Assembly (NCBI GenBank): GCA_023284085.1
Contig: JAKVHY010000015.1
Coordinates: 1 to 64,000, forward strand
Direction of reading: 5' to 3'
Length of the DNA: 64,000 bases
Source: Shewanella benthica
GTDB lineage: Bacteria > Pseudomonadota > Gammaproteobacteria > Enterobacterales > Shewanellaceae
Shown here: piece after piece, positions 1 through 17,500 of the stretch
How the letters are laid out: every line of letters begins with the position of its first letter
Numbering within the stretch: the first letter of the stretch is position 1
Made by a program: the position numbers and the translations under genes
The notes under the pieces: generated by a model
Told to the model about the DNA's origin: nothing
The model's database searches: none
The model's input: the letters and a program-made list of their open reading frames with translations, nothing else

Positions 1-414
1 TATAGAGATGAACGCTTCAATGGAATTCACTATGGGCTTATCGGATGGTATTGCCTGGCCTTGGTCAAGTTTACGCTACATAGCTATTAATAAGCTGGGG
101 GTATAGAGATGAACGCTTCAATGGAATTCACTATGGGCTTATCGGATGGTATTGCCTGGCCTTGGTCAAGTTTACGCTACATAGCTATTAATAAGCTGGG
201 GGTATAGAGATGGATGGATCGATGGAATTCACCATGGGGTTTGATGGTATCGCCAGGCCGAGTTTGCGCTACATAGCGATTAATAAGCTGGGGGTATAGA
301 GATGAACGCTTCAATGGAATTCACTTTGGAATTCACTGTGGGCTTATCCGATGGTATTGCCAGGCTTTGGTCAAGTTTACGCTACATAGCTATTAATAAG
401 CTGGGGGGATAGAG
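1..414 (+). repeat. Tandem array of about 101-bp units, each a mini-ORF copying the start of the NrfD gene
   Basis: Four head-to-tail units start at 1, 102, 203 and 295 (lengths 101, 101, 92 and 113). Units 1 and 2 are identical. A fifth, partial unit begins at 408 and becomes the genuine NrfD gene. Each unit has a purine-rich ribosome site (GCTGGGGG), then an ATG, then an ORF ending in TAG, and the next ATG follows two bases later (TAGAGATG). The ORFs lie at 8-106, 109-207, 210-299 and 302-412 and encode 32, 32, 29 and 36 residues. Their first half matches the NrfD N-terminus (SMEFTMGLSDGIAWPW). Their second half (SLRYIAINKLGV) is probably the C-terminal tail of the upstream gene, so the unit spans a gene junction. 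The length differences (minus 9, plus 12) keep frame. The array continues past the window edge or begins near it. Confidence 0.9.
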
Positions 415-1362
415 ATGGATGGTTCAATGGAATTCACTATGGGGCTATCTGATGGTATCGCTTGGCCTTGGCCAATCGCGGTATACCTGTTCTTTGCAGG
501 GATTTCAGGTGGTGCTATAGCAACGGCGATATTTATTCGTTTTTACAAGGGACAGACTGCAAACACGCCATTTTATAAAGCTGCTGCACTGATCTCTTTA
601 GTGACGATTAGCTTAGGCATGCTCTGTTTGGTTTTGGATTTGACTAACCCACTGTTTTTCTGGCGGATATTGGTTTTCTACAATCTTAGCTCTGTGATGT
701 CGATAGGTGTGATAGCACTGACAGCTTACATTCCACTGGTTGCCTTGATCACACTGCTCGCGTTTGAAGGTGAGATACGTAAGATCCCTGCTCTGGGTAT
801 GTTACTGCCAATCATCGACAAGCTAAAAGCTGTGCGTCGCCCATGCGAAGTCGTGGTATTGATTTTAGCGATGGCGGTGTGTGCCTATACAGGTTTCTTG
901 ATCTCAGCATTAATTCGCTTCCCCATCATTAATACCTCTGTATTACCGGCGTTATTCATTGTCTCTGGTATTTCAGCAGGTGCGGCAAGTGCAAAAATGC
1001 TTGCTGTTTCAATGTTTAAGGAAGAGCTGCATAGCCAGGATATGAAACTGCTTCATGGGGCTGAATGGCCAATCATGGCCGCTGAGATGTTGTTTATCTT
1101 TATGATCGCTATGTCTCTGTTTTCTGGTAATGCTGGAATGCAGAATGCTTTCTCTGCTTTTCATACCGGTGACTGGGCGGGTGTATTTTGGCTTGGTGTT
1201 GTGGGAGTTGGTTTTGCTGGCCCGTTACTACTTAATTTTGCAACGAGTAAGCGTTTTAGTCACTCAGCGCAAGCCTTTTATGCATCGGGTGTATGTGCAG
1301 TCAGTGGCATGATGTGCCTACGACTATTCATCATCTATGCGGGTCAAAATTTTGCTATCTAA
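415..1362 (+). CDS. nrfD: NrfD/PsrC-type membrane subunit, probably SirD of a sulfite-reductase system
   Basis: A 315-residue polytopic inner-membrane protein of the NrfD/PsrC family, with about eight hydrophobic segments. These proteins oxidise quinol and pass electrons through a partner iron-sulfur subunit (NrfC type) to periplasmic reductases. The N-terminus (GIAWPWPIAVYLFFAGISGG) is typical of the family. It is followed closely by NosL/NosD/NosF/NosY-type genes. In Shewanella that combination belongs to the sir cluster for the octahaem copper-dependent sulfite reductase, so sirD is the likely identity; this rests on gene order recalled from the genus. The start at 415 has a G-rich ribosome site shared with the upstream mini-ORF array, whose last stop codon ends two bases before this ATG, so translational coupling is likely. 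Confidence 0.85.
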   Translation: MDGSMEFTMGLSDGIAWPWPIAVYLFFAGISGGAIATAIFIRFYKGQTANTPFYKAAALISLVTISLGMLCLVLDLTNPLFFWRILVFYNLSSVMSIGVIALTAYIPLVALITLLAFEGEIRKIPALGMLLPIIDKLKAVRRPCEVVVLILAMAVCAYTGFLISALIRFPIINTSVLPALFIVSGISAGAASAKMLAVSMFKEELHSQDMKLLHGAEWPIMAAEMLFIFMIAMSLFSGNAGMQNAFSAFHTGDWAGVFWLGVVGVGFAGPLLLNFATSKRFSHSAQAFYASGVCAVSGMMCLRLFIIYAGQNFAI

Positions 1363-1514: not shown

Positions 1515-1546
1515 GTTGAGTCACTTTATTGCTTGTTGGAATTATC

Positions 1547-2035
1547 ATGAAAAAATTTATTATATTATGCTTAATACTGCCGTCTCTTTTTGCTTGTAGT
1601 CAGAGTGAAAATGATACGCCAAAACAGCAAGCCGAAATAATTAACCAGCATGATCGCTGTCACCAATGTGGCATGATGATCAAGAAATACCCTGGCCCCA
1701 AAGGGCAGGTTCACTTGCGAGGCGAGCAGTTAGTCCCTAAGTTTTGTTCGACGCGTGATATGTTCAGCTTTTCACTTCAGCCGGAAAATCAGCGTCAAAT
1801 ATTAAGTCTTATGGTGCACAATATGGCGATAACAGATTGGGATCACCCTGTAGATTCAAGTTTTATTGATGCTAAGACGGCTTGGTATGTTTATGGCACG
1901 AGTAAGCTGGCGGTAATGGGTCCTGCGATTGCTTCATTTGGCACAAAAGAGACTGCTGAGCAATTTGCTAAAGAGTTTGGTGGAGCTGTGTTGCAATTTG
2001 AAGATATCACCCTTGAAGTTCTAGCGGGCTACTAA
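1547..2035 (+). CDS. nosL: NosL-family copper-binding lipoprotein (SirJ-like)
   Basis: A lipoprotein of about 162 residues: the signal sequence ends in LFAC with the lipidated cysteine at residue 17. The NosL family donates Cu(I) to periplasmic metalloenzymes. The sequence shows a CHQCGMMI metal-binding motif, a conserved later cysteine (KFCSTRDMF) and the typical C-terminal half (FGTKETAEQFAKEFGG). The ATG at 1547 is chosen because it begins the signal peptide directly; an upstream TTG at 1529 would add six residues. It sits in a nrfD-nosL-nosD-nosF-nosY order. In a sulfite reductase cluster its job would be to supply copper for the haem-copper active site of the SirA/MccA enzyme. That link is inferred from the neighbours. 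Confidence 0.85.
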   Translation: MKKFIILCLILPSLFACSQSENDTPKQQAEIINQHDRCHQCGMMIKKYPGPKGQVHLRGEQLVPKFCSTRDMFSFSLQPENQRQILSLMVHNMAITDWDHPVDSSFIDAKTAWYVYGTSKLAVMGPAIASFGTKETAEQFAKEFGGAVLQFEDITLEVLAGY

Positions 2036-2080
2036 GATGATTTGTTTTTCTACACTGTAACGTGTTTGGAGAGCCGTAAA

Positions 2081-3337
2081 ATGTATCGCATCGGACTATT
2101 AGTCTGCCTACTGGCTTTCTCTCATCTTTCACTGGCTAGCATCATAGATATTTATGATGCCGGTGAGCTTAGGTACTATCTGCAACATGCCCAACCCGGT
2201 GACAGCTTGCAGCTTAAAGCCGGCCTTTATCAAGGTCAGTTTAAGGTAAACAAACCCCTATCAATCTTCAGTATGGAAGCGGTTACTATCGATGCATTAG
2301 GTAAAGGTAGTGCTTTTACTGTGTCTGCTACCGATGTGAGTATCTCTGGATTAATTATCCGCAATTGGGGTAACGATCACTATGAGAGTGACGCGGCGAT
2401 TCTAGCCCTAGCGGGGAGCGATCGACTCACAGTAACCAGTAATGTGTTAAAGGGGGACGGTTTTGGCATCTATGGTCGTGATATCGAAGGTATTCAGATA
2501 GTGGCGAACACCATAGAGGGTAACCCAGAGCTATTTAAATTAGATCGAGGTGATGGTATTCACCTGCGACATGTGAAATCGCCTTCCATCTGCGATAACA
2601 CCATCTCTCAGGTTCGCGACGGCGTCTATCTGGAGTCGACTCTGTATAGCAAGGTGCTGGGAAATCGCTTCTTTGAACAGCAATATGGCATTCACTACAT
2701 GCATTCAAAGCATGATGAGGCCGCGAATAATCAGAGTTATCGCGTCGATGGTGGCTATGCCCTGATGAACTCTGAGAAGATCCACCTGCACCATAATAGC
2801 GTCTGGCAAGCCGTGGATTTCGGCATTCTGCTCAATATGACCAAGGATTCTCTGATCGAGTCTAATAGCGTAGAGAGGATCGTTAATCCCGCAGAAGACG
2901 TGCTACCAGGCAAAGAAGGTAAAGGGATCTTTATCTATGGCGCCAGAGATAATAGCGTGCGCGGCAATCGTTTTGCTCATAGCGATATTGGCTTTTATAT
3001 GGCCATGGGAGGCGAGGGAAATAGGGTCTATGAGAACCAGTTTCTCGATAACTTCAGCCAGGTTAAATATGTTGGCGATAAACTGCTTGAGTGGAGCCGA
3101 GATGGTCGCGGCAACTACTGGAGTGGCTATTTAGGTTGGGATCATAACCTAGATGGGATCGGCAACACTCCATATAGGCCAAATGACAGCATTGATAAGT
3201 TATTCTGGCTCTATCCCGAGGCGAGTTTTCTGATGGATAGTCCCATAGTCACGGTGCTGCGATGGGTGGATCGCCAGTTCGAAATCGGTGCTGACAGTGG
3301 CATTATCGATAGCTACCCCCTGTTGAATTCGATGTAA
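2081..3337 (+). CDS. nosD: NosD-family periplasmic copper maturation protein (SirK-like)
   Basis: About 418 residues with a cleavable signal peptide (MYRIGLLVCLLAFSHLSLAS) and then a right-handed parallel beta-helix built of repeated short strands, seen as recurring N-N and G-I/V patterns (GDGFGIYGRDIEGIQIVANT, RDGVYLES). NosD works with the NosF-NosY ABC transporter in maturing copper enzymes. The start at 2081 is preferred to an upstream in-frame ATG at 2042, because the signal peptide begins there and GGAG lies nine bases upstream. The conserved C-terminal region GNYWSGYLGWDHNLDGIG is typical of NosD. Here it is likely to serve the sulfite reductase rather than nitrous oxide reductase, since no nosZ or nosR is visible. 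Confidence 0.88.
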   Translation: MYRIGLLVCLLAFSHLSLASIIDIYDAGELRYYLQHAQPGDSLQLKAGLYQGQFKVNKPLSIFSMEAVTIDALGKGSAFTVSATDVSISGLIIRNWGNDHYESDAAILALAGSDRLTVTSNVLKGDGFGIYGRDIEGIQIVANTIEGNPELFKLDRGDGIHLRHVKSPSICDNTISQVRDGVYLESTLYSKVLGNRFFEQQYGIHYMHSKHDEAANNQSYRVDGGYALMNSEKIHLHHNSVWQAVDFGILLNMTKDSLIESNSVERIVNPAEDVLPGKEGKGIFIYGARDNSVRGNRFAHSDIGFYMAMGGEGNRVYENQFLDNFSQVKYVGDKLLEWSRDGRGNYWSGYLGWDHNLDGIGNTPYRPNDSIDKLFWLYPEASFLMDSPIVTVLRWVDRQFEIGADSGIIDSYPLLNSM

Positions 3338-3374: not shown

Positions 3375-3404
3375 ACGAATAGTCAGTGTTAATTAGGATA
3401 AGTG

Positions 3405-4316
3405 ATGAATAACGAGCTCGTGGTTATCGGTCGACATATTAGGCATGAATTTGGCGATTTTGTGGTGCTGGATGATGTTAGCTTTAGTTTATATCAGGGA
3501 CAGACCATGGCGCTTCTTGGTCATAACGGTGCCGGTAAATCGACATTGATTAAGATACTGCTGGGCCTCATCTTACCATCGAGTGGTGAGATAGATATCT
3601 TGGGTAAAACCCAATTAGCTAAAGATGCCAGAGCGGATCTGCGTATTGGCTACCTACCGGAAAATGTCAGCTTCTATGATAAGTTGACCGGTGAAGAGAT
3701 CTTAACCTATTTTGCCGAATTAAAGGGCATAGGTCCTCGTAAGGTTAACCAACTTATTGAGGAGTTTGGCTTAGGGTATGCCAAAGATCGTCGCCTCAAC
3801 ACCTACTCAAAAGGGATGGCACAGCGACTCGGTTTTGCTCAGGCGATATTGAGTGAGCCTGAGCTGTTACTGCTCGATGAGCCCACAGTTGGACTCGACC
3901 CTGCGGCCTCGCAATTTCTATATGCCAAGATTGATGAGTTAAAACGTCAAGGTACGGCTGTGATTGTCTGTACTCATGAGCTCTCCTTGATCGAAAACAA
4001 CCTAGATAGTGCACTTATTCTAGCCAAAGGACGCAGCTTGGCTGCCGGAGATATGGCAGCTCTGCGTCAACAAAGTGAGTTAAAGGTAAAGATAACCTCC
4101 CCTATGCTTGAGCAGGCAATCCAAGGGTCTGCACGGTTACAGCAGATTAGTCAGGGTAATGCGCTTTATGTGGATAGCATGGATAAGCCTGAATTGCTTG
4201 AGTACCTAACTTCACAGTGTGGTGTATTTGACCTGTCGATTTTTGAGCCTGGGTTGGCCGAGATTTATCATCATTATAATAATCAAGCCAGTGGCATCTG
4301 TAGTCAGTTAAAGTAG
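3405..4316 (+). CDS. nosF: ABC transporter ATP-binding protein, NosF type (SirL-like)
   Basis: A cytoplasmic ATPase of about 303 residues. It has a Walker A motif (GHNGAGKST, near residue 42), a signature region (YSKGMAQRLGFAQA) and a Walker B motif with the D-loop (LLLLDEPTVGLDP), followed by a His switch (VCTHELS). The C-terminal hundred residues are variable, as usual in NosF/CcmA-like proteins. ATG 3405 is chosen over the in-frame GTG at 3402 because AGGA (3395-3398) is then well spaced. It partners the NosY-type permease nine bases downstream to form the exporter that supports NosD in copper-site assembly. The transported molecule is unknown; a sulfur species has been proposed for Nos systems. 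Confidence 0.9.
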   Translation: MNNELVVIGRHIRHEFGDFVVLDDVSFSLYQGQTMALLGHNGAGKSTLIKILLGLILPSSGEIDILGKTQLAKDARADLRIGYLPENVSFYDKLTGEEILTYFAELKGIGPRKVNQLIEEFGLGYAKDRRLNTYSKGMAQRLGFAQAILSEPELLLLDEPTVGLDPAASQFLYAKIDELKRQGTAVIVCTHELSLIENNLDSALILAKGRSLAAGDMAALRQQSELKVKITSPMLEQAIQGSARLQQISQGNALYVDSMDKPELLEYLTSQCGVFDLSIFEPGLAEIYHHYNNQASGICSQLK

Positions 4317-4325
4317 AGTTTTAGT

Positions 4326-5174
4326 ATGTTTATGAATAACAGTCAGTTTCGTCGTTCTCCTGTGATGGTCATCGCCAAAAAAGAGGTGAGAGATAGCCTG
4401 AGAAATCGATGGGTCCTGTTTATTTCACTGATCTTCCTCGTGCTATCACTTAGCGTGACTTTTGCGGGGAGTGCTATAAAGGGAGAGCTATCTCTACCTG
4501 AGATATCAGCCTTGATGTCTAGTCTATCGACCATCTCGGTCTTTATCATTCCTCTAGTGGCAATGTTGATAAGCCACGATGCCTTTGTGGGGGAAGATGA
4601 GGCTGGGACGCTATTGTTACTGCTCTCCTATCCATTGACACGCAGGCAGATCTTGCTGGGTAAGTTACTGGGACATAGTGTGATTATGATCTTTACTACC
4701 TGCTTTGCCTTTGGCTTTACCTGTATGTTATTGCTACTGCTCGCTGATACCTACGATGGCTTTAGTACTCTGGTTCATTTCATGCAGTTTATTTTTAGCA
4801 GCATCATGTTAGCGGTTATCTTTATTTTATTGGGCTATGTCGTCAGCCTAAAGGCGACAGAGAAGGCAAAAGCGGTGGCAAGCATTTTACTGCTCTGGTT
4901 CCTCTTTGTGCTTATTTATGATCTCCTGCTGTTAACCTTGTTGGTTGCAGACTTGTCATTTATCAATCAAGGGGTGTTCAAGGTTTTGATTGTGTTGAAC
5001 CCAACAGATATTTATCGGGCAATGAACCTGATCGGCATCGAGGGTGGTAGCGGCAGTCTGTCGGTATTTTCAGATTCTGGCTGGGGCTTTTCTGGCTTAT
5101 GTGGCGCAATGTTGACCTGGATTTCTATTCTGGTGGCAGCATGTTACGTCATATTTAATAAGCGGCCCCTATAG
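4326..5174 (+). CDS. nosY: ABC transporter permease, NosY type (SirM-like)
   Basis: 282 residues with about six membrane-spanning segments and the family's N-terminal cytoplasmic start (VIAKKEVRDSLRNRWVLF) and central motif (DEAGTLLLLLSYPLTRRQIL). It is the membrane partner of the NosF ATPase just upstream. The last gene of the cluster on this strand; the next gene starts after a 219-bp gap and encodes a regulator. A second ATG at 4332 is a possible start. Confidence 0.88.
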   Translation: MFMNNSQFRRSPVMVIAKKEVRDSLRNRWVLFISLIFLVLSLSVTFAGSAIKGELSLPEISALMSSLSTISVFIIPLVAMLISHDAFVGEDEAGTLLLLLSYPLTRRQILLGKLLGHSVIMIFTTCFAFGFTCMLLLLLADTYDGFSTLVHFMQFIFSSIMLAVIFILLGYVVSLKATEKAKAVASILLLWFLFVLIYDLLLLTLLVADLSFINQGVFKVLIVLNPTDIYRAMNLIGIEGGSGSLSVFSDSGWGFSGLCGAMLTWISILVAACYVIFNKRPL

Positions 5175-17004: not shown

Positions 17005-17095
17005 GGAGGGATGGCAGAGTGGTCGAATGCACCGGTCTTGAAAACCGGCATGGGTTTATAGCCCATCTAGGGTTCAAATCCCTATCCCTCCGCCA
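17005..17095 (+). tRNA. tRNA-Ser (anticodon UGA)
   Basis: The acceptor arm pairs GGAGGGA (17005-17011) with TCCCTCC (17085-17091). The anticodon stem CCGGT/ACCGG frames the loop CTTGAAA with anticodon TGA at 17039-17041. A long variable arm (TGGGTTTATAGCCCA) as in serine tRNAs follows. The T loop is TTCAAAT, and the 3' CCA is encoded (17093-17095). Confidence 0.96.
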
Positions 17096-17107
17096 CATTC
17101 AAGACGA

Positions 17108-17136
17108 AAGGCTACTCGAAAGAGTAGCCTTTTTTC
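17108..17136 (+). terminator. Rho-independent terminator of tRNA-Ser (copy 1)
   Basis: GGCTACTC, loop GAAA, GAGTAGCC, then six T. A perfect stem with a GNRA-type tetraloop directly after the tRNA. Confidence 0.9.
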
Positions 17137-17226
17137 GTTTAAGAAAGAAATAGCTTGATAGGGAGGTGAACCCTAGGGTTCCTGTTGTTTAAAGTCAGCT
17201 ATCCCTCCGCCATATTAAAGACGAAA

Positions 17227-17254
17227 GGCTCATCAGAAATGATGAGCCTTTTTT
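17227..17254 (+). terminator. Rho-independent terminator (array copy 2)
   Basis: GGCTCATCA, loop GAAA, TGATGAGCC, then a T-run. The stem differs from copy 1 but stays fully paired. Confidence 0.85.
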
Positions 17255-17341
17255 CGTTTAAGAAAGAAATAGCTTGATAGGGCGATGAAGCCTAGGATTC
17301 CTATTGTTTAAAGTCAGCTATCCCTCCGCCACATTCAGATG

Positions 17342-17372
17342 AAGCCCGTTATCGAAAGATAACGGGCTTTTT
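17342..17372 (+). terminator. Rho-independent terminator (array copy 3)
   Basis: AAGCCCGTTATC, loop GAAA, GATAACGGGCTT, then T-rich sequence. A 12-bp perfect stem of new sequence. Confidence 0.85.
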
Positions 17373-17458
17373 CGTTCTTGTTTTTTAGAAATAACAATTT
17401 GCCCCCTCAGGGTTCCTATTGTTTAAAGTCAGCTATCCCTGTGCACATTCAAGACGAA

Positions 17459-17500
17459 AGGCTCATCACTTCTTATTAGAGAGGGTAATGAGCCTTTTTT
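17459..17500 (+). terminator. Rho-independent terminator (array copy 4, looser)
   Basis: AGGCTCAT (17459-17466) and ATGAGCCT (17488-17495) with a longer imperfect interior, then a T-run. It is the most decayed member of the array. Confidence 0.7.

Follow-up and report, generated by a model that had tools for sequence, protein, structure and literature searches.

The window analysed here is a stretch of 64,000 nucleotides from Shewanella benthica, and it opens with the very first base of contig C15. Bases 1-475 form a tandem array with a period of 101, 4.7 copies and a score of 611 (TRF). The array consists of short open reading frames and leads into the gene of a membrane protein of the NrfD family, with further genes of the cluster downstream. 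The features are as follows:

8 to 106, forward strand: mini-ORF A, copy 1, 32 aa; an NrfD (SirD)-like head joined to an NrfC (SirC)-like tail
92 to 108, forward strand: Shine-Dalgarno (SD)-like unit tail AAGCTGGGGGTATAGAG; overlaps the stop codon and recurs ahead of the next starts
109 to 207, forward strand: mini-ORF A, copy 2, 32 aa; sequence identical to 8-106
210 to 299, forward strand: mini-ORF B, 29 aa; SirD-type head MDGSMEFT, with bases at the join that can be read as SirD or as SirC
302 to 412, forward strand: mini-ORF C, 36 aa; a 12-nt near-duplication inside
415 to 1362, forward strand: SirD, NrfD-family membrane subunit, 315 aa (PF03916, E 6.7e-64)
1529 to 2035, forward strand: NosL-family gene (PF05573)
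2042 to 3337, forward strand: NosD-family gene
3402 to 4316, forward strand: ABC-ATPase-family gene
4326 to 5174, forward strand: ABC-permease-family gene

All four mini-ORF stops in the window are TAG, followed by AG and then by the next ATG, and the start-to-start distances are 101, 101, 92 and 113. A first-pass annotation of this DNA had described at least four mini-ORFs of 29-36 aa at 1-414 with two bases between stop and start, and unit length changes of -9 and +12 relative to 101. Both descriptions are accurate (32, 32, 29 and 36 aa; spacings of 92 and 113). In the unit alignment, the -9 of unit B is made up of one 3-nt and one 6-nt difference. A separate tandem repeat is found at 17005-17500, with units of about 119 bp behind a tRNA-Ser (TGA) gene; TRF counts 2.2 copies at 17082-17335, and similar sequence continues to about 17500. 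Each of these copies contains the tRNA-Ser 3' end and a hairpin with a T run.

Beyond the window, the sole match to the array in this genome is the very end of contig C21 (E 0.001), which has 105 identical bases in common with the start of C15. The end of C21 carries the gene of a 238-aa FeS protein, then TAG, AG and ATG, and then one A unit of the same sequence as A in the window, which breaks off at the contig end with its stop codon not quite complete. At its end C21 has a pure A run of 111 nt, and C15 opens with one of 212 nt. The difference is exactly one 101-nt period, which is what a repeat-collapsing short-read assembler could leave. Because of the contig edge and the 105-base overlap, the number of A units in this genome is a lower bound only. 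If the overlap joins the contigs into one stretch, the order is SirC-A-A-B-C-SirD, with a minimum of four mini-ORFs.

The 315-aa protein scores 228.1 bits with the nitrite reductase NrfD model TIGR03148 (NCBIfam), under the cut-off of 347.6, which speaks against reading it as the NrfD of nitrite reduction. The array had been said to end in an NrfD gene; this holds for the family, and SirD is the better reading than nitrite-reductase NrfD. The 238-aa FeS protein on C21 reaches 209.9 bits with TIGR03149 (NrfC) against a cut-off of 377.6. Upstream on C21 there are genes of a 678-aa multihaem cytochrome, a rhodanese-like protein, an FKBP-type isomerase and a TPR protein (an NrfG match below cut-off) together with the FeS gene, and the opposite strand encodes an NrfE/CcmF-type haem lyase. 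The NrfD-family gene thus stands beside genes of a multihaem cytochrome and an FeS protein. Because this neighbourhood resembles a sir (sulfite reductase) cluster, the flanking genes are called SirC and SirD, and the cluster is putatively one of sulfite reductase; in a profile search, no Sir model was matched by the proteins of the cluster. The Sir names are provisional, given by layout and family after the Shewanella oneidensis operon described next. In the available text on S. oneidensis, SirA is an octaheme cytochrome, SirC an FeS protein and SirD an NrfD-like predicted quinol oxidase, and the sulfite reductase operon is named sirAIGCDJKLM (PMC6976685). Downstream of sirD in the window there is an inverted repeat at 1378-1423, and TCCCTGCAAGGTT is repeated at 1396-1408 and 1491-1503. 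Several relatives have stretches similar to CTTGCAGGGA after sirD.

The survey covered 129 Shewanella genomes, 106 of which have NrfD-type matches when distant ones are counted. Junctions were examined at 83 full-length SirD loci (>490 bits), including the locus studied here; this set excludes three SirD matches that are partial, lying at a contig edge or missing the N-terminus (G054 twice, G104), as well as every lower match, both those of at most 49% identity and those beyond the matches listed. At 80 of the 83 loci the gap between the SirC stop and the SirD ATG is 1-3 nt and there is no array. The three array bearers are the present genome, with at least four mini-ORFs before SirD, the single-contig genome G027 (gap 145), in which two units are fused as one 46-aa ORF before SirD, and G085 (gap 168), with two mini-ORFs of 27 and 25 aa. 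The first-pass annotation had suggested comparing related strains, and copy number and unit length do differ between these three related species (one genome each). In a second collection, largely of the same species, the gap lies between -4 and 5 nt at 60 of 61 loci, and 10 of these 60 belong to other genera; the remaining locus, with a gap of 168, is G085, which matches Shewanella sp. UCD-KL12. When five relatives were searched with the unit, all nine matches fell at SirD starts or sirC/sirD junctions, two weak ones among them at a second sir cluster.

In a tree of SirC and SirD (15 rows, out of 65 distinct rows), the three genomes with an array group together as one clade (99/99), which makes a single origin of the array likely. 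The sister of this clade consists of four array-less species (95/97), and both groups together are supported at 98/99. The dS values for SirC and SirD, respectively, are 0.27 and 0.40 between the present genome and G027, 0.64 and 0.95 between the present genome and G085, and 0.59 and 0.85 between G027 and G085. Since the array is found in lineages that are dS 0.59-0.95 apart, it is no fleeting duplication. The present genome has one sir cluster; G027 and G085 have two in tandem, and their second cluster, about 9 kb away, has a plain 1-nt gap. Compared in 11 windows of 200 nt, sirA of the present genome (L155, 10232-12268 on C21; compared with L153 of G027) is closer to cluster 1 of G027 in ten. 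The remaining window is nearer to cluster 2 (0.82 vs 0.73), which is perhaps a trace of recombination between clusters.

The units derive from the genes on either side of them. The C-terminus of the NrfC-like SirC on C21, GTEPSLRYIPIVKVGV, matches the unit tails SLRYIAINKLGV or SLRYIAINKLGG, so the earlier guess that the tail came from a preceding NrfC-type gene was right. Unit B shares bases with both parents to the left and right of its join: GATGGTATCGC occurs in the head of SirD too, and GCCGAGTTTGCGCTACATA in the tail of SirC. The proposed duplication across the NrfC/NrfD junction is thereby upheld: a SirC tail and a SirD head both flank the units and match them. SirC ends in IPIVK where five of the seven distinct units have IAINK; unit 2 of G027 has FINK and unit 2 of G085 has DNK at this place. 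N replaces the V of SirC in 7/7 distinct units, which points to one origin. The array likely arose from one tandem duplication spanning the sirC end and the sirD start in the common ancestor, to judge from these sequences, and the head of unit B may have been taken over from SirD. A derivation of the units from the second sir cluster appears less likely by head comparison: the cluster 1 SirD head MDGSMEFTMGLSDGIA fits the units better than the cluster 2 heads of G027 (MDGSIEFTMGLSQGIA) and G085 (MDGNIEFTMGLSQGIA).

The lengths of the units follow a rule. The six ORF elements of the three arrays have six lengths, 101, 92, 113, 143, 86 and 80 nt, and all are 2 mod 3 (3n+2). The chance of this is (1/3)^5 = 0.004 if the lengths are independent, which related units are only partly. 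A hand count on the unit alignment gives seven of eight length changes in threes, again among units that are related and not independent. These events are -3 in B, +6 in A and C, +12 in C, -9 common to G027_2 and G085_1, -12 in G027_2, -27 and +1 in G027_1, and a net -15 in G085_2, the middle of which is not alignable with other units. The probability of 7/8 is 0.0026 at a rate of 1/3 and 1.4e-5 at 8/52, the rate among gaps in noncoding stretches nearby, a rough rate with noisy blastn gap placement and with the present sequence in both comparisons (23.7 kb aligned to G027 and 12.4 kb to G085). In the same comparisons, 38 of 50 (G027) and 45 of 54 (G085) indels inside ORFs are non-triplet; gap placement or the ORF mask is therefore imperfect, and the figure for 1/3 is given beside that for 8/52. 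In G027 the units measure 69 and 74 nt, and an extra G removes the first stop. Despite this frame-breaking +1, the stop of the resulting 46-aa fusion is again 2 nt away from the SirD start. Directly before each unit's stop there are five or six G in a row (97-101 in the window and equivalents), and one extra G in this run, as in G027, brings a unit into frame with the next start. Slippage at this run could fuse units.

A simple model of ribosome passage, in which a next ATG within 12 nt of a stop counts as a path kept, shows what such changes would do. Single-base insertions keep a path to SirD in 14% of cases in the present array, 1% in G027 and 13% in G085. Three-base insertions keep it in 96-98%, and the other non-triplet changes tried keep it in 1-20%.

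Point substitutions are less telling. Random substitutions in the unit create a stop in 1.5% of cases, or in 6.5% disrupt the ORF when start or stop loss is included. Among about 40 substitutions (a rough hand count), the probability of zero nonsense changes is 0.55, and that of zero nonsense changes, start losses and stop losses is 0.07. The lack of nonsense changes is weak evidence because merely 1.5% of substitutions would be nonsense; with less than one expected by chance, nonsense avoidance was discarded as proof of translation. The first-pass annotation had argued from it that translation through the array matters. That view keeps the support of the length rule and of the relay model, whereas the nonsense argument is not significant. 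Three non-overlapping unit pairs give a pN/pS of 0.28, where neutral simulation has a median of 0.78 (P 0.007); for the full set of 21 pairs the value is 0.35. The low values are carried by pairs with B or G085_1, mainly by B/G085_1 (10 synonymous and 6 nonsynonymous changes); pN/pS is 1.18 for A/C, 1.45 each for A and C against G027_1, and 2.00 for C/G027_2. Of the seven distinct units, five retain MxxSMEFT and six retain INK. A constraint on the peptide sequence would fit these numbers, which are suggestive only. In a Pfam scan of the three peptides of the present genome, the best result was a weak MELT_2 match (E 0.04).

Signals for translation are predicted throughout. The unit tail at 92-108 has a predicted anti-SD pairing of -9.7 kcal/mol, and the stretch before SirD in the window has -9.3. 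At all starts examined in the three arrays there is an SD-like stretch, with a pairing of -7.7 to -10.6 kcal/mol, in keeping with the ribosome site that had been claimed for each unit. In comparison, the pairing before SirD in 60 loci (L039-L098, G085 among them) is -6.1 to -10.7, with a median of -7.7 kcal/mol. Coupling is favoured when a stop lies close before a start, as stated in the available part of PMC12548453, and the array has the layout of coupled cistrons, with a stop-start spacing of 2 nt and the ribosome site inside the upstream end. The predicted RNA fold of the array is no different from that of shuffled sequences (z 0.29). No sigma-70-type promoter or intrinsic terminator was found in 1-414; the three sites of the scan in 1-1600 lie further down.

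We propose that the array is probably a termination-reinitiation relay that arose by duplication of a gene junction and was selected to stay translatable. A segment over the sirC end and the sirD start would have been tandemly duplicated, most simply once, in the ancestor of the three species, after which the array would have grown, shrunk and diverged between lineages. Each unit would be a mini-cistron in which the first SirD codons are in frame with the last SirC codons, and its SirC-derived end would supply the ribosome-binding sequence and the stop for the start two bases on. A ribosome leaving SirC would be handed through a relay of one mini-ORF in G027, two in G085 and at least four in the present genome before it reaches SirD. 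Selection would remove changes that drop ribosomes before SirD and would let units fuse or change in length by multiples of three. As an outcome, SirD would stay coupled to SirC, and the SirC:SirD ratio may shift with unit number. A lossy relay would lower SirD output, and fresh initiation at each SD could offset the loss. Against the relay, the extra G of G027 does break its unit's own frame, and there is no unusual RNA structure for coupling to open. Moreover, with an SD in each unit, ribosomes could start afresh at SirD and a relay would not be needed.

The closest competitor is a passive duplication without benefit, to which we give not quite even chances. It is not mutually exclusive with the favoured reading, as the two have the relay in common and only the gain is denied. 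A duplicated coupled junction of length 3n+2 would be tolerated because the duplication copies SD, stop and start together, so that SirD keeps its local start context, and the frame rule would reflect the removal of harmful changes. The restriction of the array to one clade, its variable length and the much the same SD-like tail retained before its starts all fit this account, as do the 80 of 83 SirD loci that manage without an array. For MIRUs (mycobacterial interspersed repetitive units), too, coupling likely allows insertion with minimal impact on the gene, according to the available portion of PMC12548453. On the other side, persistence over dS 0.59-0.95 is long for a repeat that recombination can delete, and 0/3 array species have reverted to a plain junction. 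An artefact of assembly at the contig edge has next to no chance of explaining the array, the copy number of A aside. The window does begin at a contig edge and the contigs share 105 nt, but units B and C differ from A, and homologous units are present at the same place in G085 and in G027. Since the genome of G027 is in one contig, assembly does not account for the existence of an array.

A dose- or phase-varying switch, in which identical A units change number often and set SirD translation, appears unlikely. At least two identical 101-bp units stand beside diverged ones, the assembly breaks at the same place, and unit numbers differ between species; ordinary repeat slippage would, however, explain identical copies, and SirCD is a respiratory complex and no typical contingency gene. 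An action of the peptides as such, which might for instance occupy the SirC/SirD contact that supplied both of their ends, is quite improbable. The pN/pS of 0.28 (three pairs) to 0.35 (all pairs) and the recurrence of MxxSMEFT (5/7 units) and INK (6/7) would agree with this. Against it, the unit middles vary in length and sequence, unit 2 of G085 is unlike the others, G027 has one 46-aa fusion instead, and the three peptides of the present genome have no Pfam match better than E 0.04. A somewhat more plausible but still doubtful extension of the relay is a copy-number-adjustable, heritable rheostat, in which each mini-cistron would change the passage of ribosomes from SirC to SirD by a set factor and unit number or openness would be selected. 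If true, the rheostat would be a local counterpart of MIRUs outside mycobacteria and a route to evolving subunit ratios in operons. 

Around the same two subunits, the three arrays and the sister clade form a natural series of none, one fused, two and at least four units, in which it could be measured how serial mini-ORFs affect coupling and subunit ratio. A duplication over a coupled junction would turn the flanking genes into translatable spacer, a possible origin of MIRU-like elements.

Among the matches listed in the open-licence PMC literature there is no report of this array. The MIRU literature is said to include Supply et al. 1997. The MIRU is the nearest known kind of element. As described in the available parts of two sources, it is a short repeat whose small ORF is coupled in translation to the following gene, and its tandem copy number varies (PMC12548453; PMC3635867). 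MIRUs occur in many mycobacteria, appear to be mobile, and their coupling has a spacing of -4 nt (PMC12548453, available part). The array is similar in that the small ORF of its repeat is placed for stop/start coupling to the next gene, with stop, 2 nt and ATG throughout the three genomes. Its unit number varies between the three species (one genome each). It differs in its spacing of +2 nt instead of a -4 nt overlap, in its presence at one locus rather than interspersed, and in being built from the flanking genes' own ends. Because it fails on dispersal and on the -4 spacing, the array is not filed as a MIRU. On the best reading, it would work like a MIRU in layout yet would have been born locally and not dispersed. 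Short upstream ORFs that deliver ribosomes, such as the nfORF booster (PMC13255528) and the iraD uORF (PMC5574718), are known from the accessible portions of these papers. Such coupled pairs and short uORFs (PMC12548453; PMC13255528; PMC5574718) are like the array in that stop and start are close and the peptide need not matter; in the sections available, each has one short ORF, whereas the array is a series of one to at least four inside a gene cluster. The axe-txe mini-ORF lies in an operon and acts in cis on a later gene, and its frame and distance matter (PMC8708949, accessible text). It shares with the array the position of mini-ORFs within an operon ahead of a later gene but has two codons and, in that text, no repeat. 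The SirACD proteins of S. oneidensis have the same combination of a haem cytochrome, an FeS protein and an NrfD-like protein; the available description of that operon mentions no array (PMC6976685), and at 80 of the 83 SirD loci of the survey sirC and sirD are 1-3 nt apart.
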